Shown piece by piece: positions 761 through 16,983 of a stretch of DNA of 23,664 nucleotides (positions within the stretch are counted from its first letter, which is position 1; the number at the start of each line of letters is the position of its first letter). The stretch spans positions 1-23,664 of the IMG/VR virus record IMGVR_UViG_3300028837_000441; one strand, given 5' to 3'. Source of the DNA: a virus. The translations under genes were made by a program, and so were the position numbers. The notes beneath the pieces are model-generated. The model was given only the letters and a program-made list of their open reading frames with translations, had not been told where the DNA came from and did no database searches.

Positions 761-1498
761 ATGAGTGTGATCTATGAACCGCGAGGACGGGCGAAGAATT
801 CTGCCGTACCCACGCAGGGGAACGATCTGGCGGTCGGGTTATGCGCATGTGGCTGTGGTCAGCGCACATCAATCGCGAAACGCACCGATAAGCGGTATGG
901 AATTGTTGCTGGCCAGCACTATAGATATGTCCGTGGACATCAAGCCCGCGGTGTGCCAAAAACTGAGGAACACAAACAGAAATTGGCTGAAGCTATGACC
1001 GGTAAGCCGGGCTACTGGACAGGGAAGAAAATGCCAGAAGCTGCCTGCGAGAAGATGAGTGAATCTGCTCGCAAAAAGACACTGTCGCGCGAGCACAAAG
1101 CGAAAATTGCAGCAAGCATGAAAGGACGCATTGTTTCAGAAGAGACGCGAGAGAAATTGCGCCAGCATAAGCACTCTGTTGAGGATCGCGTCAAGATGAG
1201 GGAGGCGCAGCGAGGCGATAAGGGTTCAAATTGGCAGGGCGGTGTTAGTTCGGAGATGAATCGCGCTCGTCAATCACTCAAATTCAAGTTGTGGCGAGAG
1301 GCGGTCTTCGCGCGAGATTTGCATACATGCCAGGACTGCGGGAGAACCAAAGAAGAATTGGGTGATATCATCCTTCATCCGCATCACCTCAAGAGCTTCA
1401 CAAAATACCCTGCCTTGAGGTACGAGATCGCAAATGGAATAACCCTATGTTCGGTTTGTCATGCCAAGAGGCATCATCGACGGAGGTTTCCAAAATGA
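761..1498 (+). CDS. HNH homing-type endonuclease with NUMOD3-like motifs
   Basis: The 245-residue protein starts at the ATG at 761 because GGGAGG lies 7 bases upstream; an in-frame GTG at 668 would overlap the lipoprotein gene. Residues 28-34 (CACGCGQ) to RGH at 58-60 form a small Cys-containing module often seen before phage HNH domains. Residues 67-140 hold NUMOD3-like DNA-binding motifs (TEEHKQKLAEAMTGK, SREHKAKIAASMKGR, SEETREKLRQ). Residues 180-240 are the HNH nuclease: CxxC pairs at 190/193 and 230/233, HH at 208-209, N225 and H234. The first 11 residues (MSVIYEPRGRA) resemble the start of the radical SAM protein downstream rather than an endonuclease. The gene looks more AT-rich than its neighbours, which fits a mobile element. 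Its TGA overlaps the next ATG. Confidence 0.85.
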   Translation: MSVIYEPRGRAKNSAVPTQGNDLAVGLCACGCGQRTSIAKRTDKRYGIVAGQHYRYVRGHQARGVPKTEEHKQKLAEAMTGKPGYWTGKKMPEAACEKMSESARKKTLSREHKAKIAASMKGRIVSEETREKLRQHKHSVEDRVKMREAQRGDKGSNWQGGVSSEMNRARQSLKFKLWREAVFARDLHTCQDCGRTKEELGDIILHPHHLKSFTKYPALRYEIANGITLCSVCHAKRHHRRRFPK

Positions 1499-2379
1499 GG
1501 ATAGTCTACAAGCCTTGCGGACGCGCCCTTGAGTATTCCTTGCTCGCCCTGAATGCGTGGGGTCGTAGTTTTTGTGGACATGCGTGCTCCTATTGCTATT
1601 GCCCTCGAATGTTCAGGATGAGTAGGGCGCAATGGGAGCAGCAACCTTTTCGGCCCCGCAAGGATCTACTGCGGTTGCTTCGTTTAGACTGTAAAGAACT
1701 ATGTGGCACTAACATACGGGTACTTTGCTGCTTTGCCGGCGACTTATACAGCCCAGAGGCGGTCAACTCCGGACTGAGTCGTAAGATACTGGAGATCCTG
1801 CGAGAGCACGACATCCCGTTTCAAGTGTTGACCAAGGGCGGTATGCGCGCCGTCGGGGACTTCGATCTGTACGGCCCTCATGACGCGTTTGCCACTACAA
1901 TGACGTTCATCAAGTGGCGCGATAGCGCAGAAGCGGAGCCCCAAGCCGCCCCGCCCATACATCGCATTGGGTCCCTCGTGCAAGCTCACCAATGCTTTCG
2001 CATACAAACATGGGTGAGCCTGGAGCCTGTTCTCGATCCCGAACAATCACTCAAGATCATCGAAGAAACCTGGAATTTCGTTGACCTCTACAAGATCGGC
2101 AAGCTTAATCACGACAAACAGCGGGAAGACCGCATCGACTGGCGGGCGTTCGGCATGGAGGCCATCGCGCTGTGCGAGAAGTACGGGAGGCGCTACTACA
2201 TCAAGAGCGACCTCGCAGGGTATCTCAAAGGGGTTCGGTTCACGAATACCGATACGCGGACGGTGGACCGGCCGGATCGCTCGGCGGCGGGCGGTGCGGG
2301 GGCACCGAAAGAGCGGCACCACAAACCAGCGGTCAGCGACAATGAACCATCGCTGTTCAATGAGGAGAACATACCATGA
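1495..2379 (+). CDS. Radical SAM protein (SPL-like, phage type)
   Basis: The 294-residue protein starts at the ATG at 1495, which overlaps the HNH stop (ATGA) and is preceded by GGAGG. Cysteines 27, 31 and 34 form the CxxxCxxC motif that holds the 4Fe-4S cluster of radical SAM enzymes, inside FCGHACSYCYCP. The sequence before it (VYKPCGRALEYSLLALN) and later segments (VLTKGG, WVSLEPVLDP) fit the group of phage and bacterial proteins related to spore photoproduct lyase. The family cleaves S-adenosylmethionine to a 5'-deoxyadenosyl radical; the substrate here is unknown, with DNA or a modified base plausible from the neighbours. The C-terminus carries PSLF, which loosely resembles a sliding-clamp-binding motif. 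It overlaps the ASCH gene by 4 bases. Confidence 0.8.
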   Translation: MRIVYKPCGRALEYSLLALNAWGRSFCGHACSYCYCPRMFRMSRAQWEQQPFRPRKDLLRLLRLDCKELCGTNIRVLCCFAGDLYSPEAVNSGLSRKILEILREHDIPFQVLTKGGMRAVGDFDLYGPHDAFATTMTFIKWRDSAEAEPQAAPPIHRIGSLVQAHQCFRIQTWVSLEPVLDPEQSLKIIEETWNFVDLYKIGKLNHDKQREDRIDWRAFGMEAIALCEKYGRRYYIKSDLAGYLKGVRFTNTDTRTVDRPDRSAAGGAGAPKERHHKPAVSDNEPSLFNEENIP

Positions 2380-2759
2380 GAGCCTTATCCATTCGCCAGC
2401 CCTGGGCGTGGCTAATCCTGCACGCCGGCAAGGACGTCGAGAACCGCACGTGGCGGACATCCTACCGGGGCCCGATCCTGATACATGCAGCCCAAAAAGG
2501 GGATTCGGAACAGTGGTATCACCTATGGCATACGCGTGTAAATTGGAATCTGCCCCCACTGGCCGAAATGGGTCTCGGCGGCTTCGTGGGCACGGCCACA
2601 ATCGTCGATTGCGTGACGGACTCCGAGAGTGTCTGGTTCGACGGCGCCTACGGTTTCGTGCTGGCAGACGTCAAGCCGTTGCCGAAGTTCATCCCCTATC
2701 GGGGGCGGCTCGGCTTGTTTAATGTGGACGACTCGGTAATTCTCCCGCTTGACAGATAA
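2376..2759 (+). CDS. ASCH-domain protein
   Basis: The 127-residue protein consists almost wholly of an ASCH domain: the N-terminal SIRQPWAWLILHAGKDVENR block, where the family has its conserved QP.a..i..G.K..E.R pattern, then WRTSYRGPILIHAA and the GxVG-like strand GGFVGTATIVDC. ASCH domains share the PUA-like fold and bind RNA or modified nucleotides; the bacterial member YqfB hydrolyses N4-acetylcytidine. The ATGA overlap with the radical SAM gene points to coupled translation and a linked role. I infer a reader, or an enzyme acting on a nucleotide, in a modification pathway. No transmembrane or secretion signal is present, so it should be cytoplasmic. Confidence 0.8.
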   Translation: MRALSIRQPWAWLILHAGKDVENRTWRTSYRGPILIHAAQKGDSEQWYHLWHTRVNWNLPPLAEMGLGGFVGTATIVDCVTDSESVWFDGAYGFVLADVKPLPKFIPYRGRLGLFNVDDSVILPLDR

Positions 2760-2789
2760 CTCTATGTGCTGGTATTTAGGGGCAAGAGC

Positions 2790-3191
2790 ATGAGAAATAG
2801 ACGAACAGATGAACAGAAACCAACGGCGTTCAACATCGGCTACCAGGGCCGAACCGTGGACGATTTGGTCCAAGCCCTCAAGAGCAACGGGGTAACGGTA
2901 CTCATAGACCTGCGGGAAAGGCCAAGGAGCCGGGTCCCCGGTTTCGGGGGCTGGCAGCTCGCCGCGAGCCTGGAAGCTGAGGGTATTGGGTACTGCGCAA
3001 TGGGTCAAACGCTTGGGGGCTTCACTTGTACGCCCCAGATGTGGTGTGAGGGCTGCGTGGTTGTAGCCGAGATGGTGGGTCACGAAACGGTGTGCTTGAT
3101 GTGCATGGAGCGCGACGCGAGCCAATGCCACCGGACCCAAATCGCTGAAATACTGACGGCCGAACACGGAATAACGAGCATCAACCTCTGA
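2790..3191 (+). CDS. DUF488 family protein
   Basis: I chose the ATG at 2790 (133 residues) because AGGGGC lies 6 bases upstream; a GTG at 2766 would add 8 residues without a clear ribosome site. The protein opens with FNIGYQGRTVDDLVQAL and LIDLRERPRSR, and ends with CLMCMERDASQCHR, the typical DUF488 signature in which an arginine-rich loop and a C..E....CHR block come together. The biochemical role of DUF488 is not established; conserved Cys, His and Arg suggest an enzymatic or nucleotide-binding site. It is rich in cysteine. It lies in a tight cluster with the ASCH and methyltransferase-like genes, which suggests a shared pathway. Confidence 0.8.
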   Translation: MRNRRTDEQKPTAFNIGYQGRTVDDLVQALKSNGVTVLIDLRERPRSRVPGFGGWQLAASLEAEGIGYCAMGQTLGGFTCTPQMWCEGCVVVAEMVGHETVCLMCMERDASQCHRTQIAEILTAEHGITSINL

Positions 3192-3203
3192 GGAAACTAG
3201 CTC

Positions 3204-4517
3204 ATGTTTACCGGCTCTGTATGCAGCCAGGTAAGGGAATGGTTCAAGGCCAATGCCAGCGCCTTTGCCGGTAAGCGCATCCTCTCAGGCTGCTGGGGGA
3301 ACTTCACGATAGAGACCGTCCTCTCGCAGGCGGCCGAGCGGCCGGCCGAGATCGTATCAAGCGACGTGTCGCTCTACAGCTCAGCCCTGGGCATCTACTT
3401 CACAGAGGGCCCACCGCTGAAAGTCACGCCTCGCAGCGACGAATGGGACTGGACCAGGCGGTACCTCTCCGACGCCGAAGCGCTTGCCGGGACGATGATC
3501 GTGTTCCTGGAGGCGGCGCCCTACAGCAGCGGACGGACGGCCTATCACCGGCGCATGCTGGGTCATTACCTGGGGGGGTTTGCAGCCATGCACGAGCAGG
3601 CGGTCAAGCGACTGCGGGTCCGCAAGCAGATTCTCGAGATCGCTCGCTACGAAGCCTGCGATGTGCGTGCGTTTGTGGCCGAGCGAGAAGACGGTGATAT
3701 CTTTTTGAGCTTCATGCCCACCTACGCCGGGGGGTACGAGCGACTGTACAAGTTCGTCGATGCCGTATTTGATTGGGACGGCCGGCCCCAGTACGAAGTC
3801 CTCGACGCCAAGAAGAAGGCCTCGCTACTGGAAGATATCAGGCAGGTCGGCCGGTACGTGCACGTAGACGATATGCGGCGAGACGGGATGGGCGTAGTGG
3901 CGATCATAGAGGGGGGCCGGGGCAGACCAGTCTACGTGCACAGCAACTTAGGCGAGGTGCAGGCCGAGGCATACCGGCGAAGTCGCACGGTCCATACCAA
4001 GCCGGACATCGCAATCCTGGGCCCGGAAGAGAGGATCGAATCGACCGAGATCACCTTCGTGATGCTGACGGCAAATGAGTTTGCGTGGGTTCGCGACCAG
4101 CATCTCAATCCGAAGATCATACCGGCGGATCCCTCATGGCGCTTCGGGGTCTGCGTGAGAGGGGTGCTGATAGGGGTGCTGGGCTGGGCCCGCGACAAGG
4201 GGGGCGTGGAATACTACCTGATGTGTGATCTGGCGGTGAAGAGCCAGGTCTACGCGAGACTGAGCAAACTGATCTGCCTGGTGGCCAACACGCGCGAGAT
4301 GCACAAAGTCCTACGACAGCAGACTGGACGGCTTTGGCACACCTTTTCGACCACAGCCTTTACTGACAAGCCAGTATCCATGAAATATCGAGGGGTGCTC
4401 AAATTGCGCAGGCGCAATCAAAAAGAGGGAACCCTCACCTATGAAGGCGATTACTCAGGCACATTGAACAAGGCGGTAAAGAGATGGCGGAAACTGGAGA
4501 AGATCAGGCAGGGCTAA
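3204..4517 (+). CDS. Putative antirestriction methyltransferase-like protein with possible Mom-like C-terminus
   Basis: The 437-residue protein starts at ATG 3204 with GAGG about 10 bases before it. Residues 24-63 look like a Rossmann SAM-binding region: RILSGCWGNFTIE, then SSDVSLYSSALG. Residues 169-179 (SFMPTYAGGYE) occupy the place of the catalytic S/D-PP-Y-like motif of amino-methyltransferases, but the first proline is replaced by M. The C-terminal part, about 275-437, holds ARLSKLICLVANTREMHKVL and TAFTDKPVSMKYRGVLKL, resembling the region of phage proteins compared with the Mu Mom DNA-modifying protein. I infer covalent modification of adenine in phage DNA to evade host restriction. 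The next gene, a ParB-fold protein, overlaps by 34 bases. The family call rests on pattern memory, so substrate and chemistry are uncertain. Confidence 0.55.
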   Translation: MFTGSVCSQVREWFKANASAFAGKRILSGCWGNFTIETVLSQAAERPAEIVSSDVSLYSSALGIYFTEGPPLKVTPRSDEWDWTRRYLSDAEALAGTMIVFLEAAPYSSGRTAYHRRMLGHYLGGFAAMHEQAVKRLRVRKQILEIARYEACDVRAFVAEREDGDIFLSFMPTYAGGYERLYKFVDAVFDWDGRPQYEVLDAKKKASLLEDIRQVGRYVHVDDMRRDGMGVVAIIEGGRGRPVYVHSNLGEVQAEAYRRSRTVHTKPDIAILGPEERIESTEITFVMLTANEFAWVRDQHLNPKIIPADPSWRFGVCVRGVLIGVLGWARDKGGVEYYLMCDLAVKSQVYARLSKLICLVANTREMHKVLRQQTGRLWHTFSTTAFTDKPVSMKYRGVLKLRRRNQKEGTLTYEGDYSGTLNKAVKRWRKLEKIRQG

Positions 4518-5233
4518 AGACCGAGCTGCGGACCGTGGACCCTGGAGAGGTGGAGCTGCTGGAGGTGAACGCCCGCTTCATGAGTCCCGAAACCTACCAG
4601 CGGCTCGTGAAGAACATCCAGCGCGACGGACAATTAACCAGCGTTCCGCTGTGCTATCAGACGCCCAAAGGGAAGCTGCGCTGCATCTGGGGCAATCACC
4701 GCACCAAAGCGGCCGTGGATGCGGGACTCACAGAGATTACCGTGCAGGTCGTTACCACGCCGATCAGCAACGATCGGTTCATCGCCATGCAGTTGAGCCA
4801 CAACGCGCTGGCCGGGGAGGACAACCAGGAAATCCTGGGGCTGTTATGGCATAAGATGCACGATGCCGACATGAAGGCCTACAGCGGCCTCGATAAGGCG
4901 GCGATCCAGCCCCTCGATCAACCCACTATTCCACCCATAGATGCGCGACTGGACTTTGAGCAGGTGACGGTACTGTTCGTGGGTACCGAGAAGGAGGAGG
5001 TGGCCAAGGTGGCGAAAGAGGCCCGGCAACGGGGTATCTTGAACGGGGAGGTGTGGGTCGAGCAGATTGGCAGCTACGAGGAGGTCAGCCGGGCGTTGGG
5101 GGCGGTATGCGAGGCGGAGGGGGTACACAACTTCGCCACCGCATTGCTGTGCATGGCCCGGTACGCCGAGCAGTTCATGGGATCGCAGGTTGCGGGTGAA
5201 GTGACACCGGAGACACGCTCAATGTCCAGTTGA
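4484..5233 (+). CDS. ParB/sulfiredoxin-fold protein
   Basis: The 249-residue protein has a ParB N-terminal-like domain at about residues 15-110: LRTVDPGEVELLEVNARFM, a helix ending NIQRDGQL, and the nucleotide-site motif GNHRTKAA at 70-77, equivalent to the G.hR..A box of ParB/Srx proteins. Residues 150-230 form a second alpha/beta part (VTVLFVGTEKEEVAKVAKEA) that I do not recognise. ParB-fold domains bind CTP or ATP and occur as partition proteins, nucleases and partners of DNA-modification enzymes. No helix-turn-helix follows the fold and no ParA is near, so plasmid-type partition is unlikely. The 34-base overlap with the methyltransferase-like gene suggests they act together. Its last 14 codons overlap a tRNA-like structure. 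Confidence 0.75.
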   Translation: MAETGEDQAGLKTELRTVDPGEVELLEVNARFMSPETYQRLVKNIQRDGQLTSVPLCYQTPKGKLRCIWGNHRTKAAVDAGLTEITVQVVTTPISNDRFIAMQLSHNALAGEDNQEILGLLWHKMHDADMKAYSGLDKAAIQPLDQPTIPPIDARLDFEQVTVLFVGTEKEEVAKVAKEARQRGILNGEVWVEQIGSYEEVSRALGAVCEAEGVHNFATALLCMARYAEQFMGSQVAGEVTPETRSMSS

Positions 5234-5324: not shown

Positions 5325-5882
5325 ATGGGAAGACCGACTCTCACACCGGAAATTGCGACTGCCCTGGAGAGTTATTGGGAGATTTCTGGCGATACACTCT
5401 CCGACGAGCAGATTTGCGAGCGGGTCATCGTTAAGCGCACGCGCGCAGAGAAAACGTACAAAGAGCACGTAAGATTCGCCCAGCTAAGGGGTTGGCTCCA
5501 GAGGAATACGAAGGTCACACGGGAGAGCGGGATCTGTGAGGGGCTGCGCGATATACGTGCGCGCGCCAAGGCCAAGACCAAGGCGGGGTATTTACAGCGG
5601 ATTGTGTCGATCGTAATGGAGGCCCACGTCGCGGCGCAGGACGCCTTCACCAGGGCCAGGGCAGCCAAAGGGACCCCGCACGATTTTGCCGCGGCGGCCA
5701 AGCTGTTGGATCTCGCCGGCAAGTACACGGCGTGGCTGGCTGAGCGGCAGTTCCCGCTGGACTTCCATCCACAGCGGCTCCAGCCCAAGACCCAGGACGA
5801 ACAATCCGCGATGGACAGGGTCCGCCAGGCGCTGGGCGAGCTTGACGCCATGCACCAGGTCGAGGAGGGCAACGATGAATGA
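5325..5882 (+). CDS. terS: Putative terminase small subunit
   Basis: The 185-residue protein lies directly upstream of the large terminase and overlaps it by 8 bases, the usual place and coupling for the small subunit. Its N-terminus (MGRPTLTPEIATALESYWEI) resembles the helix-turn-helix start of small terminases, with SDEQICERVIVK as a second helix pair, followed by an Arg/Lys-rich helix (RDIRARAKAKTKAGY) and helical segments likely to form the oligomer core. The family recognises phage DNA and regulates the large subunit during packaging. The first block could equally be a general DNA-binding fold, so the call rests mainly on context. GGCCCAGGG precedes the start at 5325. Confidence 0.6.
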   Translation: MGRPTLTPEIATALESYWEISGDTLSDEQICERVIVKRTRAEKTYKEHVRFAQLRGWLQRNTKVTRESGICEGLRDIRARAKAKTKAGYLQRIVSIVMEAHVAAQDAFTRARAAKGTPHDFAAAAKLLDLAGKYTAWLAERQFPLDFHPQRLQPKTQDEQSAMDRVRQALGELDAMHQVEEGNDE

Positions 5883-7236
5883 CCTCTGGCCAGCGCGTTG
5901 GACGGCGTGTCGCCTGGACCCTCGACAACATGCGTTCCTCCGCAGTACCGCGATGATCAACGTGGTCCCCGCTGGCCGCAGATCATGGAAGACGGAAGGT
6001 TCCAAACGACGGCTGGTGAGAAATGCCGTGACCTTCCATCGCTATCCCGATGGGCGCTTCTACGCCGGGGCCCCGACGCACCAGCAGGCCAAGGACATCT
6101 TCTGGGACGATTTGAAGGCACTGGTACCGCGTTGGGCGCTGGCCACGGGCAGTCCGAAGACCGACATCAGCGACGGCGAGTTGAAGATCCGGCTCTGGAA
6201 CGGAGCGATGATTAAAGTGGTCGGGCTCGATGTGCCCGCCCGGATCGAGGGCAAGGACTGGGATGGCGGCGTGGTGGACGAGTACGCCGACTGCAAGAAG
6301 ACCGTCCTGGAGGAGCACGTCCTGCCCATGCTGGTGCGGGGCGGGTACGTGGACGTCATCGGCGTGCCGGGGGGACGCAACCATTACTTCGAGCTGGTGG
6401 AAAAGGTCCGCGCCGGGACCATCCCTGACGCGGCGTATTTCCACTGGACGGCCCAGGAGGTCCTGCACCTCTATCTTGGGCATGAACGCGCCAACACGTT
6501 CCTGGCACAAATGCGAGAGCAGATGGACGAGCTGACGTTCGAGCAGGAGTTCAACGCCAGCTTCATCGTATTCGAGGGGCGCGTGTACTATGCGTTCCGG
6601 CGCGAACTTCACGCATCCGAACGGGTCCGCTATGACCCGACGTTGGCCCTGGTGCTGGCCTTCGACTTCAACGTCTCACCCGGCGTCTGCGTGATTATCC
6701 AGGAGCAAGAATACAGAGGCAAAAATCCCAGGATCGGGAAGGTCGTCACGGCGTGTGTGGATGAAATCTGGATCGCGCGCAACAGCAACACGAAGCGTGT
6801 CTGCCGCGAAATCGTCGAACGATACGGCAAGCACGCCGGCGAGGTGCATTGCTACGGCGACGCGACCGGCGGGGCCAGGGGGACGGCCCGCGTCGAAGGG
6901 TCCGACTGGGACTTAATCAAGGCGGCATTGCGGCCGGTATTCGGGGACCGTCTCCGCTTCGAGGTGCCCAAGGGCAACCCCTACGAGCGCGTGCGGGTCA
7001 ATGCCCTCAACGCCCGGATCGAAAACGCCGACGAAGTGGCACACCTCGTGGTGGATCCCCGCAAGTGCAGGCATACGATCATGGACTTCGAGGGGGTGCT
7101 CTGTACCAATGACGGATCCGGGTCCATCGAAAAAACGCGCGACCTCATGTTGACCCACCTGACTGACGCGATTGGCTACTACATCGCGAGAAAATATCCC
7201 CTGGTTGAGTACGAGACGATCCTACAGCAGATGTGA
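5875..7236 (+). CDS. terL: Terminase large subunit
   Basis: I start it at ATG 5875 (453 residues), which has GAGGAGGG upstream; the frame is open further back but only inside the small-subunit gene. Residues 33-40 (AGRRSWKT) are the Walker A position; it resembles the GRR-x-GKS form of phage motors but has W where G is usual. Walker B is VVDEYA with D135 and E136. The C-terminal RNase H-like nuclease shows the expected acidic residues: D264 in LAFDFN, D329 in CYGDAT and D431 in HLTDAIGYY. The protein pumps DNA into the prohead and cuts it. The length is normal for the family. It is followed by an adenine methylase 28 bases on. Confidence 0.9.
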   Translation: MNDLWPARWTACRLDPRQHAFLRSTAMINVVPAGRRSWKTEGSKRRLVRNAVTFHRYPDGRFYAGAPTHQQAKDIFWDDLKALVPRWALATGSPKTDISDGELKIRLWNGAMIKVVGLDVPARIEGKDWDGGVVDEYADCKKTVLEEHVLPMLVRGGYVDVIGVPGGRNHYFELVEKVRAGTIPDAAYFHWTAQEVLHLYLGHERANTFLAQMREQMDELTFEQEFNASFIVFEGRVYYAFRRELHASERVRYDPTLALVLAFDFNVSPGVCVIIQEQEYRGKNPRIGKVVTACVDEIWIARNSNTKRVCREIVERYGKHAGEVHCYGDATGGARGTARVEGSDWDLIKAALRPVFGDRLRFEVPKGNPYERVRVNALNARIENADEVAHLVVDPRKCRHTIMDFEGVLCTNDGSGSIEKTRDLMLTHLTDAIGYYIARKYPLVEYETILQQM

Positions 7237-7264: not shown

Positions 7265-8233
7265 ATGAAGGCCCCATTCCCATATTTCGGTGGCAAAGCG
7301 GCGATAGCGACCCGCGTCTGGGCGGCGCTGGGTGACGTCCGTCATTACATGGAGCCGTTTTGTGGCTCGTGTGCCGTGCTCTTGGCCCGGCCGCGTTACG
7401 ATCCACAGCGGCATGTCGAGACGGTGTGCGACGCCGATGCCCATATCGCCAACGTCTGGCGCGCCCTGCACCTCGGCGACCCGGACGAGGTGGCGAAATG
7501 GTGCGATTGGCCGGTGAACCATGCGGACCTGATCGCGCGCAAGAAGCGCCTCAATATGAACACGGCAGACCTCCTGGAGAAATGCTGTAACGATGAGACT
7601 TACTACGATGCCAGGCTGGCCGGGTACTACATCTGGGCGGCGTCCTGCTGGATCGGGCACGGCCTGATATGCCCGAATCAGATCCCGCGATTGACCCGCG
7701 CCGGCGCGGGCGTTCACGCCAAGGGCCAGATCCCGCACTTGACCCGCGCCGGCGCGGGCGTTCACGCCAAGTACGTGTCGAATATCTATGCGTGGTTTCG
7801 GGAATTGTCAGAGCGATTGCGCCGCGTGCGGGTGGTCTGCGGCGATTGGTCTCGGATCTGCGGTGGCAATTGGCAGACTCGGCCGGGCCGACCGGTGGGT
7901 ATCTTCTTCGACCCGCCCTATTCCGAGGTGGCGACGCGTGATGCACACATCTACGCCGTGGATTCGCTCGACGTCGCTCATGCAGTGCGCGACTGGTGCC
8001 GGTCGCGGGCGGGCGACCCGGACTACCGGATCGTCCTGGCCGGGTACTATGAGGAGCACGTCGAACTGCTGGACGACGGATGGCGCGTGCATCGATGGAA
8101 GACGCGCGGCGGGTACGGGAATCAGGGCAAGGGCCAAGCGAAGCGAAATCGGCATCGCGAGGCATTGTTCCTGTCACCGCACTGTTTGACGAGCGAAAAG
8201 CAAATCGGTCTTTTTGAGAAAGGGGTATCATGA
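7265..8233 (+). CDS. dam: DNA adenine methylase, D12 class
   Basis: The 322-residue enzyme begins MKAPFPYFGGK, the SAM-binding motif I of D12-class N6-adenine methyltransferases, and has the catalytic DPPY at residues 216-219 (IFFDPPYSE). Motifs MEPFCGSCAVL and CDAD (residues 55-58) fit the same family. Residues 139-169 hold a 16-residue segment written twice (I-P-x-L-T-R-A-G-A-G-V-H-A-K), from a 48-bp tandem duplication. The ATG at 7265 has AGGAG about 19 bases upstream, too far to be ideal; a TTG at 7247 is too close to it, so the start is uncertain. It probably methylates phage DNA against restriction. Its stop overlaps the next start (ATGA). Confidence 0.88.
   Translation: MKAPFPYFGGKAAIATRVWAALGDVRHYMEPFCGSCAVLLARPRYDPQRHVETVCDADAHIANVWRALHLGDPDEVAKWCDWPVNHADLIARKKRLNMNTADLLEKCCNDETYYDARLAGYYIWAASCWIGHGLICPNQIPRLTRAGAGVHAKGQIPHLTRAGAGVHAKYVSNIYAWFRELSERLRRVRVVCGDWSRICGGNWQTRPGRPVGIFFDPPYSEVATRDAHIYAVDSLDVAHAVRDWCRSRAGDPDYRIVLAGYYEEHVELLDDGWRVHRWKTRGGYGNQGKGQAKRNRHREALFLSPHCLTSEKQIGLFEKGVS
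7679..7771 (+). repeat. 48-bp tandem duplication with palindromes, inside the adenine methylase
   Basis: Two adjacent copies (7679-7726 and 7727-7771 plus 3 bases) differ at only a few positions. Each contains the perfect 16-base palindrome CCCGCGCCGGCGCGGG at 7695-7710 and 7743-7758. The duplication keeps the reading frame and adds 16 residues. Confidence 0.9.
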
Positions 8234-9748: not shown

Positions 9749-11161
9749 ATGGCCAGTACCAGCAAACAGGATTCCGTCGATACCCCACATCCCGCCTACA
9801 CGGCCATGCTCGATGCCTGGGCCTTAAGCGATGACCTCATGGGCGGTACGAAGGCCATGAAAGCCGCCGGGACGGCTCGCCTGCCCAAGCACGAGAAGGA
9901 AGAGCAGGCCGTCTATGACACTCGTCTCCAGCGCTCGGTCCTGTGCGACAAGTACCGCGATGCGCTGGTCACGCTGTCTCGGCGGCCCTTCGCCAAGCCG
10001 GTGACTTTGCTCGGCAAAAAACTGCCCGAGCCACTGGATGCCATCGAGGGATCGGTGGACGATGAGCGACGCAATCTGACTCAGTTCTGCCATCTGGTGC
10101 TCAGGACCGGGATCCAGCGCGGGCTGGCGCATATCCTGGTGGACTATCCGGCCGTGACGGCCGAGAACAAGGCGCAGGAGCGCGAGCTGGGGCTTAAACC
10201 GCTGCTGTTGTGCATCGACCCGATCAACGTCATCGGCTGGCGCGATGAAACCGCACCCAACGGCGAGAGGCGTCTCACCCAACTGCGGATTCGCGAATCA
10301 GTGACGGCGAACGATGGACGTTACGGTGCGGTTCACAAGCAGCGCATACGGATGATCGAGCCCGACCAGTGGACTCTCCATGAGCAGGACGACAAGGACA
10401 ACTACGTGCTCATCGAAGAAGGCCCCTGGAGCGTGGGCAAAATCACCCTGGTGACGATCTACTTCGAGGGCGCCGGCTTCATGACCGCGCATTCCCCCCT
10501 GGAGAACCTCGCCGATTTGAACCTCACGCATTGGCAGCTCTACAGTGATTATCTCAATACGCTATGCTTTGCAGGCACAGGCGTTCTGTTCGCCAGCGGG
10601 TTCACCGCGGAAGAGCTTAAGCAATCCATCGTGATCGGCGTCAACCACTGCGTCAAGACCACCAACCCCGAGGCGAACCTGCGGATCGTCGAGCACAGCG
10701 GGGCCGCCATCGGTGCCATGCTGGAAGGGTTGCGCGACCTCGACGGCAAGATGGACCGGGCCAGTAAGGACCCGTTGATCGTGCGGTCCTGGGGCAATGA
10801 GACCGCAATGGGCCGCGCGATCGACGAAGGTAAGGGTCAGTGTGACCTCCAGTCCTGGGTGCGGCTGACCGAGGGCGGCGTCCTGCAAGCCTATGGCTAT
10901 GCCGCCGACTGGATGAAGACCGAGCTATCGGAAGACTTCGGCGTGGACATCTACGACGACTTCGGCCTGGCCCTTCGCTCGGCCGAGGATATGGGCCAAC
11001 TCCTGGAGGCGACGCAGGCGGAGATCATCAGCCACGAGACCTACCGCGAACAGGCCAAGCTTCGGGCGATACTGAGCGAAACCTTCGACGAGGAGGAGGA
11101 AAAACGCCGCTTGGCCCAGCAGGGTGTGGCGTTGGGCATGATTGGACGCGAAGAGAGCTAA
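9749..11161 (+). CDS. Portal protein, DUF4055 type
   Basis: The 470-residue protein matches the DUF4055 portal family by its N-terminus: HPAYTAMLDAWALSDDLMGG, GTKAMKAAGTARLPK, then RSVLCDKYRDALVTLSRRPF. It is followed by the usual wing and stem regions, such as HILVDYPAV, SPLENLADLNLTHWQLYSDY and a C-terminal helical crown. Portal proteins form the dodecameric channel at one head vertex through which the terminase pumps DNA. Its place between terminase and head morphogenesis genes fits. The length of about 470 residues is normal. A GG-containing site precedes the ATG at 9749. Confidence 0.85.
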   Translation: MASTSKQDSVDTPHPAYTAMLDAWALSDDLMGGTKAMKAAGTARLPKHEKEEQAVYDTRLQRSVLCDKYRDALVTLSRRPFAKPVTLLGKKLPEPLDAIEGSVDDERRNLTQFCHLVLRTGIQRGLAHILVDYPAVTAENKAQERELGLKPLLLCIDPINVIGWRDETAPNGERRLTQLRIRESVTANDGRYGAVHKQRIRMIEPDQWTLHEQDDKDNYVLIEEGPWSVGKITLVTIYFEGAGFMTAHSPLENLADLNLTHWQLYSDYLNTLCFAGTGVLFASGFTAEELKQSIVIGVNHCVKTTNPEANLRIVEHSGAAIGAMLEGLRDLDGKMDRASKDPLIVRSWGNETAMGRAIDEGKGQCDLQSWVRLTEGGVLQAYGYAADWMKTELSEDFGVDIYDDFGLALRSAEDMGQLLEATQAEIISHETYREQAKLRAILSETFDEEEEKRRLAQQGVALGMIGREES

Positions 11162-11185
11162 CCTAGAAGAGACGGAGTGAACCGA

Positions 11186-11305
11186 ATGGCGCAGAAAGGT
11201 GTTCCCAAACGAGATGGCAGTGGGCGGGGCGTTCGCGCCAACCGCGGACGCGGGGGCTGCGCAACGACCCGATCAAGCGGACGCGGCAGCAATCGCCGGA
11301 GGTAG
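11186..11305 (+). CDS. Arg/Gly-rich microprotein
   Basis: A 39-codon frame starts with MAQKGVPKRDGSGRGVRANR and ends in SGRGSNRRR. It has a good ribosome site (GGAG, 8 bases before the ATG) and fits exactly between portal and head morphogenesis genes. The product is strongly basic with repeated R-G pairs and one cysteine, and resembles short RG-rich proteins found near portal genes in other phages. It could bind DNA or the scaffold. I assign no function; the spacing and ribosome site make me think it is real. Confidence 0.55.
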   Translation: MAQKGVPKRDGSGRGVRANRGRGGCATTRSSGRGSNRRR

Positions 11306-11317
11306 TGCGATCAGCTA

Positions 11318-12439
11318 ATGGCGAAATCGAAGACAGAACGGGCGGCCGAGACCGTCAATGAGATCATCCAGGATCGAATCATCCGCCACGGCATCTTCCT
11401 GGAGCGATACAAGACTGGCGAGGTCCGCGAGATCGTTGGCTTTCTCAACAACCACGTGGAGAGAGACCTGGTCAGGAAACTGCGCGACGTCGCTGCGGAC
11501 GAATTGACACGCACGCGGGTCAATAAGTTGCGAAGCCAAATCGGCCAGATCGTCCGTGACGGTTATGCCGCCATGCACAAAAAAATCGAGCCCGAGCTGA
11601 TCCAGTTCGGGGCGCAGGAGGCCGCCTGGAATGCCAAGATGCTGCGGCAATCCGTGCCGATAGAATTCAGCGTGGTCTCTCCCTCCGTCGCGGCCGTCCG
11701 GGAGATCGTGCGGAACCAACCCATCCACGGCAAGATGGTCAAGGACTGGTTTGCCGAGCTGGCGCCACGGACGGCGGCGAAGGTCAACCAGCAAATCATG
11801 ATCGGCTTCATCGAGGGCGAAGGGGTCGATGAGATCACCCGACGCATACGGGGCACGCGGGCCAAGAAGTACAGCGACGGCATTCTCAATGCCACCCGCC
11901 ATGAAGTCGAATCGGTCGTCCGCACCAGTATTGCCGGCGTCTCGGACAACGTGCGGCAGGAGACCTACGAGCAAAACGCCGATCTCATCAAGGCCGTCGA
12001 ATGGGTCGCCACTTTGGATGCGCCCCGGCGACGAACCACAAAGAGCGGCAACCGAGGCAAGATCACTCGATCAGGGACGTGTATCGCCTGTGGAGCGCTG
12101 GACGGCCGGGTGTTCGCCCTTGATGAAGGACCGCGTGCACCGCTGCATCCAAATTGTCGCTGTTCGCGCGTGCCCATCACCAAATCCTGGAAGGAGCTGG
12201 GTATCGACGCCAAGGAGGCCCCGGCGGGCACGCGGGCCAGCATGGACGGCCAGGTGCCCGAAGCACTGAGTTACGGCAAATGGCTGCGCCGCCAGGGGGC
12301 CAAGAACCCCCAGATCGTCCACGATGCGCTGGGCAAGACCAAAGGCAACCTGTTCATGCAGGGCAAGCTCAAGATCCGCGATTTCGTGGACGACCGCAGC
12401 CATATCCTGACGCTCAAAGAGCTGGGCTACGCGGATTGA
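11318..12439 (+). CDS. Phage head morphogenesis protein (Mu F / SPP1 gp7-like)
   Basis: The 373-residue protein has the signature of the SPP1 gp7/Mu F minor-head family in its C-terminal half: a helix RTSIAGVSDNVRQETYEQN at about residues 204-222, then GTCIACGALDGRVFALDEGP and HPNCRC, where C..C and HPNCRC may bind metal. The N-terminal 190 residues are helical. Members link portal and capsid and are probably injected or carried in small copy number. It follows the portal and precedes the scaffold, as expected. The ATG at 11318 lies 12 bases after the microprotein stop, and a terminator begins 2 bases after its TGA. Confidence 0.85.
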   Translation: MAKSKTERAAETVNEIIQDRIIRHGIFLERYKTGEVREIVGFLNNHVERDLVRKLRDVAADELTRTRVNKLRSQIGQIVRDGYAAMHKKIEPELIQFGAQEAAWNAKMLRQSVPIEFSVVSPSVAAVREIVRNQPIHGKMVKDWFAELAPRTAAKVNQQIMIGFIEGEGVDEITRRIRGTRAKKYSDGILNATRHEVESVVRTSIAGVSDNVRQETYEQNADLIKAVEWVATLDAPRRRTTKSGNRGKITRSGTCIACGALDGRVFALDEGPRAPLHPNCRCSRVPITKSWKELGIDAKEAPAGTRASMDGQVPEALSYGKWLRRQGAKNPQIVHDALGKTKGNLFMQGKLKIRDFVDDRSHILTLKELGYAD

Positions 12440-15275: not shown

Positions 15276-16973
15276 ATGGCTAACGACTTTTCAGGTGACG
15301 GAAACTGCCTGGCTGTGTATCGGCAGGAAAGCGGTGCCCTGACGACCGACTCGAAGGGCTCCAATACCCTGACGAACAGCGGCGGGGTGACGGCCAACGC
15401 GGCGACTTATCGTGAAGGCTCATATTCCGGCGACTACACCTACACGGCACCGGATTACCTGTCGCTCGCCAACGCCAGTCTTCCTGCCACTTGGCCGGGC
15501 AAGGCGTCGCACGATTTCTCAGTGACGGCACATTTCCGGTGTGACAGCTTGAACTATCGCTGCATCGCCGGCGTCTATCACACCGCCGACGATGACCGGT
15601 CCTGGGTGATTGAGATATGGAACGACAGCGGGACCTACAAGATTCGCGTGGTCATCGGAAAATCCAGCGGGGCCGATTGGGACATCTACTCCCACGCCAC
15701 CGGCCTGTCGGTCAACACGTGGTATTTCGTCGCCCTGATCGTGGACATGGACGGCAACATCAAGATCAGGTTGTCCGAATGGAACGGTTCCTCTTACGAC
15801 CACGAGGGCACCGACATTGATACATCGCTCTTGAACGCCATGAGCGCCACGAGTGCAGATTTCAGGATTGGCTCTCGATCTGATTCGGTAAATCCGTGGA
15901 GTGGTCAGATTGATGAAGTGTGCGTCTTCGATGACCTGCTGACGGATCAGGAAGCCGACGACATCCGTGACGGGTCATATAGTCCATCACCGGGAAATCT
16001 AACAGCCGCCGTCTCCGATAGCGTGACGATTGGTGAATCCGTCTCCGCAGAGGTGACGCCCCTGGAGGCGGTAGTTGCAGACGCGCTGTCGATCGGCGAG
16101 GGGGTCGCGTCCAAAGAGACACCACTGGAGGCGGTGGTTGCAGACAGCCTTGACATTGCCGAGTCTGTGGAGGCGAACGCGAATCTCGCAGTGACCATCT
16201 CGGATGGCGTGACGATCGGTGAATCCGTGTCAGCACAGGTAACTCCGCTGCTGGCCGTGGTTGCAGACAGCCTTGACATTGCCGAGTCTGTGGAGGCGAA
16301 CGCGAATCTCGCAGTGACCATCTCGGATGGCGTGACGATCGGTGAATCCGTGTCAGCACAGGTAACTCCGCTGCTGGCCGTGGCTGCGGAAAGCGTGGAC
16401 ATCGCTGAGGCCCTGGAGGCGAACGCGAATCTCGCAGTGACCATCTCGGATGGCGTGGCGATCGGAGAATCCGTGTCAGTGGCAGTGACACCGCTGCTGG
16501 TATCGGTCGCCGACAGTCTTGGCATCGCTGAGGCCGTGGCAGCCAGTAAGAACCCGGTGGCCACCGTCTCCGATAGTATGGGGATCGGAGAATCCGTAGC
16601 GGCCGAGGTGACGCCCCTGCTGGCGGTGGTCGCGGACGCGCTGTCGATCGGCGATGTCGCCGTAGCCCAAGAGACGCTGCTGCTGGTATCGGTCGCCGAC
16701 AGTCTTGGCATCGCTGAGGCCACAGCGATTGAGATACCCGTACTGGAAGTCATGACCAGTGACGTACTGGTGCTGGTCGATCAAGTCCTGGCCACACGAA
16801 TAGGGGGTCTTTCAGCGACACAGGCGGAGGCCTTGCATGTTATCGATCAGTGTATGGCCGAGATCACCCCATTGTTGGCAGTAACCAGCGACTCGCTACA
16901 AATTAGTGACGCGGCGCTCGCCAATAGCAGTATGGCCATCCTGGCATTTCTGATGCTCAAGAAACATCGTTAG
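15276..16973 (+). CDS. LamG-like adhesin with 41-residue repeats
   Basis: The 565-residue protein has a concanavalin/LamG-like domain at about residues 1-235. It shows the family pattern: HDFSVTAHFRCD, SWVIEIWNDSGTYKIRVVIG, NTWYFVALIVDMDGNIKIRL and a closing PWSGQIDEVCVFDDLLTDQE, where the last is the typical D-E-hydrophobic end. From about residue 246 on it has Val/Ala/Asp/Ser-rich repeats (SDGVTIGESVSAQVTPLLAV and ADSLDIAESVEANANLAV), about 41 residues per period, and ends in a hydrophobic stretch plus KKHR. LamG domains bind sugars, so a surface fiber that binds host glycans is likely. It lies in the structural operon after the coat region. AGGTG precedes the ATG by six bases. Confidence 0.75.
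   Translation: MANDFSGDGNCLAVYRQESGALTTDSKGSNTLTNSGGVTANAATYREGSYSGDYTYTAPDYLSLANASLPATWPGKASHDFSVTAHFRCDSLNYRCIAGVYHTADDDRSWVIEIWNDSGTYKIRVVIGKSSGADWDIYSHATGLSVNTWYFVALIVDMDGNIKIRLSEWNGSSYDHEGTDIDTSLLNAMSATSADFRIGSRSDSVNPWSGQIDEVCVFDDLLTDQEADDIRDGSYSPSPGNLTAAVSDSVTIGESVSAEVTPLEAVVADALSIGEGVASKETPLEAVVADSLDIAESVEANANLAVTISDGVTIGESVSAQVTPLLAVVADSLDIAESVEANANLAVTISDGVTIGESVSAQVTPLLAVAAESVDIAEALEANANLAVTISDGVAIGESVSVAVTPLLVSVADSLGIAEAVAASKNPVATVSDSMGIGESVAAEVTPLLAVVADALSIGDVAVAQETLLLVSVADSLGIAEATAIEIPVLEVMTSDVLVLVDQVLATRIGGLSATQAEALHVIDQCMAEITPLLAVTSDSLQISDAALANSSMAILAFLMLKKHR
16012..16730 (+). repeat. Repeat array in the adhesin, 123-bp period
   Basis: The repeats have a period of 123 bases (41 residues). 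The copies at 16134-16256 and 16257-16379 are identical by eye. The one at 16380-16502 is diverged, and a further copy follows. A block near 16500 recurs near 16687. Recombination could change the copy number without breaking the frame. Confidence 0.85.
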
Positions 16974-16983
16974 GAGAATAACT

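Follow-up and report, generated by a model that had tools for sequence, protein, structure and literature searches.

The question raised by this locus is whether five tightly packed genes directly upstream of a phage's terminase genes form one system, and what such a system would do. The window, the whole stretch of 23,664 nucleotides that was analyzed, is a 23.7-kb phage fragment that carries terminase, portal, MuF, capsid and tail genes in its list of open reading frames (ORFs). The same list bears out the five genes of the original prediction, including their order and overlaps, all on the plus strand. A gene for a radical SAM enzyme (DUF5131 / PA0069 / mobile-pair-B-like; 1495-2379) is followed by genes for an ASCH-domain protein (2376-2759, overlapping the radical SAM gene by 4 nt), a DUF488 protein (2766-3191), a DAM-like and GNAT fusion that is the proposed base-modifying enzyme (3204-4517) and a ParB-fold protein (4484-5233, overlapping the DAM/GNAT gene by 34 nt). 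Between a clamp-loader fragment and the cluster lies a NUMOD3/HNH endonuclease gene (668-1498), whose end overlaps the start of the radical SAM gene by 4 nt. The terminase genes, outside the proposed system, follow on the plus strand at 5325-7236 (putative small subunit 5325-5882, large subunit about 5950-7236, from TerL relatives), and clusters in ValentiniPuff, FP_Brigit, L032, L038 and L050 hold the same position. Elsewhere in the window, 7283-8233 encodes a second, Dam-type (D12) methyltransferase with an intact DPPY motif and an in-frame 45-nt direct repeat (7679-7771), and 15276-16976 encodes a repetitive protein with 123-nt tandem repeat units that is probably surface or tail-associated.

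The predicted family assignments hold, through Pfam and PHROG matches for ASCH (Pfam ASCH 7e-4, phrog_3193 2.3e-49), DUF488 (Pfam DUF488 1.5e-16), DAM/GNAT (PF22555 1.6e-49, PF22559 6.5e-37) and ParB (phrog_7405 2.3e-54, ParB_N 0.011). The radical SAM enzyme has weak Pfam scores (DUF5131 E 5e-4, Radical_SAM 0.04) and is placed in its superfamily by a CxxxCxxC motif (C27-C31-C34, nt 1573-1596) whose cysteines are invariant among 30 relatives. The ParB-fold protein has N-terminal ParB similarity only, far under the cut-offs of the ParB partition family, and no parA-like gene, as expected of a canonical ParABS system, was recognized beside its gene in the window. Profile searches of the PDB returned weak ParB matches for this protein, one weak relative only (8vpo) for the radical SAM enzyme, and nothing useful for the DAM/GNAT protein, the DUF488 protein or the small methyltransferase that accompanies radical SAM genes elsewhere.

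Whether the genes belong together was evaluated from the neighborhoods of their relatives. Those of the DAM/GNAT protein comprise 15 phage records, 48 IMG/VR contigs and 49 GTDB genome contigs; a single-sequence scan of IMG/VR with the protein found no relatives, and an alignment-based scan succeeded. Because a short GNAT motif pattern served to pick the loci, the sampling is biased, and near-copies are many. All 53 viral loci collected, which include Mycobacterium, Gordonia, Faecalibacterium and Microbacterium phages, have a ParB gene immediately 3' of DAM/GNAT; in the Faecalibacterium phage FP_Brigit and the Microbacterium phage ValentiniPuff, the terminase genes come next after ParB. Pfam DUF488 is present in 11 of the 53 DAM/GNAT records versus none of 46 random contigs, which were drawn by random 15-mer. 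With an iterated profile the DUF488 count rises to 40/53 loci, in most of them immediately 5' of DAM/GNAT, compared with 0/46 random contigs and 2/81 radical SAM loci. The divergent copies share an LC-E...CHR signature, reach 98.8% in hhalign against canonical copies and match Pfam DUF488-N3a in 12 of 13 cases. The window has this arrangement at 2766-5233, with DUF488 5' and ParB 3' of DAM/GNAT. In FP_Brigit (L005), an S-adenosylmethionine synthetase gene (3963-5141) lies shortly upstream of the DUF488-tRNA-DAM/GNAT-ParB cassette.

The radical SAM gene has 80 relatives in IMG/VR, with a top identity of 65% (L085). Among the 81 radical SAM loci, ParB is present in 52 and a small methyltransferase with weak TRM1 resemblance in 38, and neither occurs in the random contigs. 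The usual order is ParB - methyltransferase - radical SAM, often beside terminase genes; the window's radical SAM gene belongs to this module type. ASCH is occasional. In L088 and L089, clamp loader and radical SAM have ParB and the methyltransferase as neighbors, and L085 has the order clamp loader - radical SAM - ASCH - ParB - ABC-ATPase/GNAT, where the ASCH - ParB - ABC-ATPase/GNAT fusion part (9881-12008) adjoins the radical SAM gene that is closest to the window's. L133 carries DUF488 - ParB - TRM1-like methyltransferase - radical SAM (1346-3604) upstream of terminase genes, the first three genes overlapping.

The original prediction had combined all five genes in a single pathway, and this part of it is rejected. 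The five-gene set occurs only in the window among the DAM/GNAT and radical SAM loci; radical SAM is found in 2/53 DAM/GNAT records, at a distance, and DAM/GNAT in 0/81 radical SAM loci. The five genes are not one conserved pathway but join two module types, both of them ParB-linked, which seem to have been combined in the window at a single swap site. The uniqueness of the full set, along with the varying contents of L085, L088, L089 and L081, would also suit a mere hot spot, in which the genes upstream of terminase are independent cargo with no functional connection. That explanation is rather improbable given the obligate ParB pairing and recurrent DUF488 across unrelated phages and hosts, the fixed ParB - methyltransferase - radical SAM order, and the overlapping DUF488-ParB-methyltransferase genes that accompany radical SAM in L133. 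The association of DUF488, DAM/GNAT and ParB is not chance, nor is that of radical SAM with ParB. For the former three genes the predicted role in modification or anti-restriction is well supported by context, and for radical SAM the recurrent linkage to ParB and methyltransferase makes it likely.

The chemistry of the core module centers on the DAM/GNAT protein. Its AF2 model (pLDDT 86) has E. coli Dam as the top Foldseek match (E 1.6e-5), in agreement with the PF22555 match to a Dam fold with motif I, and GNAT proteins are matched too; the top viral fold match over the whole protein is an amidoligase-DAM-GNAT fusion (phrog_2443; A0A8S5SJK3). At motif IV (3711-3722, plus strand), the window protein has FMPT in place of the catalytic (D/N)PP(Y/F). 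Alignments of relatives give FPPF, YPPF or AAPPT in most, and NPPT in a gut-phage clade, the Lys clade of FP_Brigit and its relatives, and in ValentiniPuff. With its motif IV degenerate, the window's Dam-like domain probably does not methylate in the usual way and might do no more than present the base; ordinary methylation may still take place in the FP_Brigit clade and ValentiniPuff, which keep NPPT. The GNAT domain bears the signature PVSMKYRG (4371-4394, plus strand), the version seen with tRNA-Gly in relatives. The prediction of a Mom-like end survives as an analogy, namely a GNAT domain with a probable charged-tRNA donor. Membership of the Mom family is unsupported, with hhalign probabilities of 0.2% against Mu Mom alone and 28% when a five-member Mom profile is used.

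The donor is suggested by tRNA genes that ARAGORN finds just 5' of DAM/GNAT in many loci, ValentiniPuff included, often between DUF488 and DAM/GNAT. Examples of tRNA-Gly, -Lys or -Arg genes directly 5' include L002 6893-6964, L005 6732-6808 and L050 7790-7867, among others; background tRNA adjacency is 1/607 ORFs in random contigs and 2/1048 ORFs in radical SAM loci. Across the viral and GTDB sets, the GNAT motif PVSMKYRG accompanies tRNA-Gly in 21 cases, PE[AS]KEMRG tRNA-Lys in 8 and PEAKGLRG tRNA-Arg in 8, with no swaps among these pairings, and the pattern is repeated in the GTDB genome set (49 loci). Collapsing at 80% identity leaves 12 groups to which one of these tRNAs is assigned (7 Gly, 3 Lys and 2 Arg); these share ancestry, and one further group (L239/L247) has an upstream tRNA-Met. 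On a maximum-likelihood protein tree, the Gly, Lys and Arg identities each fall in one clade and require only two changes, and a branch supported at 100/100 places the window protein on the Gly side. The Gly tRNAs have three anticodons (tcc, ccc, gcc) and the Arg tRNAs two, so the amino acid and not the codon is conserved. The D-loop GG is absent in 15/35 cassette tRNAs, 6 of which also lack T55, and these sequences suggest poor elongators. Neither the tRNA linkage nor the pattern of amino acid and clade was found described in the literature searched.

The 23.7-kb window, a fragment of a phage genome whose remainder lies outside it, has no tRNA gene, and an Rfam scan of it gave none. Many Gly-clade relatives, above all a Streptomyces group, likewise have no tRNA within reach, and two Streptomyces loci have a tRNA-Met further upstream of DAM/GNAT. 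Relaxed ARAGORN searches at -ps75 gave random calls that were excluded from the evidence, and calls at -ps90 are treated as leads only; the latter include tRNA-Lys in L038, L045, L053 and L248, the first three of which carried a Lys label on the tree. A further -ps90 lead, a tRNA-Pro about 125 bp 5' of DAM/GNAT in L249 and L251, where the GNAT motif is PESKEMRG, is possibly a fourth amino acid.

The same data bear on a simpler account, in which DAM/GNAT methylates adenine in the ordinary way (or uses acetyl-CoA to acetylate bases) and the adjacent tRNA gene serves codon supply or counter-defence. The Dam fold, the NPPT of the Lys clade and ValentiniPuff and the SAM synthetase upstream in FP_Brigit are all compatible with methylation, and tRNA-Lys encoded by a phage can counter the PARIS tRNA nuclease (PMC12707154). 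Set against this are the loss of motif IV, in the window as in most of the Gly clade, and tRNAs whose amino acid follows the enzyme clade while their anticodons vary, whose identities span three amino acids and whose D-loops are often degenerate. The account is on balance unlikely.

ASCH domains have links to RNA, and the cluster might instead modify RNA such as host or phage tRNA, with DUF488, ASCH and radical SAM acting on tRNA and GNAT on RNA or on tRNA itself. The DUF488 protein has conserved C113 and C121-H-R123 (nt 3102-3134), and its AF2 model (pLDDT 83) is Rossmann-like with weak resemblance to cysteine phosphatases, RNA 5'-phosphatases among them; Foldseek gave weak matches that include phosphatases, with none below E 1e-3. 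This resemblance, the tRNA genes inside the cassette and the weakly TRM1-like partner of radical SAM are in keeping with an RNA target. The nearest fold is nevertheless that of a DNA enzyme, Dam, the ParB partner is obligate and the cluster adjoins terminase genes, and in L085 the place of DAM/GNAT is occupied by an ABC-GNAT whose type has a predicted role in DNA-base modification (PMC7824862). An RNA target is quite improbable.

The best reading of the core cluster is a Mom-like anti-restriction system whose GNAT domain would move an amino acid, here glycine, from a charged tRNA to a base. Since relatives almost always pair the same enzymes, often with a tRNA gene for Gly, Lys or Arg, such phages are suggested to decorate their DNA bases with amino acids from charged tRNAs and so to resist bacterial defenses. 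In the proposed process, the ParB-fold protein, probably NTP-gated, would load the system onto phage DNA at about the time when it is packaged. Binding and flipping of the target base, most likely adenine, would fall to the Dam-like domain, with no ordinary methyl transfer given the domain's degenerate motif, and the GNAT domain would pass the amino acid to that base. The predicted donor for the window's clade is glycyl-tRNA, which would be either a host tRNA or the product of a tRNA gene beyond the fragment. DUF488, as a putative Rossmann-like cysteine enzyme, would perform an accessory step, e.g. to process the donor or the product of the modification. Radical SAM and ASCH, presumably borrowed from parallel ParB-linked modification modules, might further tailor or read the modified base, and the outcome would be resistance to restriction enzymes. 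This proposal in full, with the DUF488, DAM/GNAT and ParB genes (2766-5233) as its core and amino-acid transfer included, stands at about an even chance. The broader claim is possible but falls somewhat short of even: that phage systems of one widespread family attach different amino acids (Gly, Lys, Arg and perhaps others) to DNA bases, each with its own phage-encoded and often translation-defective tRNA as donor, a Dam-derived module to present the base, and ParB and DUF488 as fixed partners.

If true, any of several amino acids could decorate DNA, and which one could be read from the neighboring tRNA gene; phage tRNA genes would have a role outside translation, and DUF488, a domain of no known function, would gain a concrete biochemical setting. 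Several carriers are cultured phages, in which the claim is open to a direct mass-spectrometry test; they include Mycobacterium phages Jeon and Taptic and Gordonia phages Clawz and Sting for the Gly clade, FP_Brigit for Lys and ValentiniPuff, probably for Arg.

Parts of this design have precedents. The DAM-like/GNAT architecture is already catalogued in Pfam, with no function assigned to it in the literature searched: the window protein matches DAM-like-phage1 (PF22555) and GNAT-phage-like (PF22559), and DUF488 partners match DUF488-N3a (PF22751). Burroughs and Aravind are reportedly the probable source of the cataloguing of this DAM/GNAT architecture. The amidoligase-DAM-GNAT fusion (phrog_2443) resembles the window protein in fold over its whole length and differs by its extra amidoligase domain, which is likewise an amino-acid-joining enzyme type. 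The ABC-GNAT phage systems of Iyer and Aravind, predicted to modify DNA bases (PMC7824862), share a GNAT domain for acyl modification, and the one in L085 occurs with ParB and ASCH next to the radical SAM gene most closely related to the window's; in these systems an ABC ATPase replaces the Dam-like domain, and no DUF488 or tRNA was seen. A DNA-modifying viral enzyme that uses charged tRNA is on record in ref. 435 of PMC12707154, as cited there for Mu Mom. Mu Mom, which modifies adenine, has in common with the window a phage GNAT-superfamily enzyme and an anti-restriction role, and probably also an aminoacyl-tRNA donor and an adenine target. The window protein differs from it in having no clear sequence relation and a fused Dam-like domain, and the window system in its ParB and DUF488 partners and in relatives that often have their own tRNA gene, with Lys and Arg versions. 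By this analogy, tRNA-dependent DNA modification would be of a kind already reported for Mu Mom, and the window system would be a variant of that kind.
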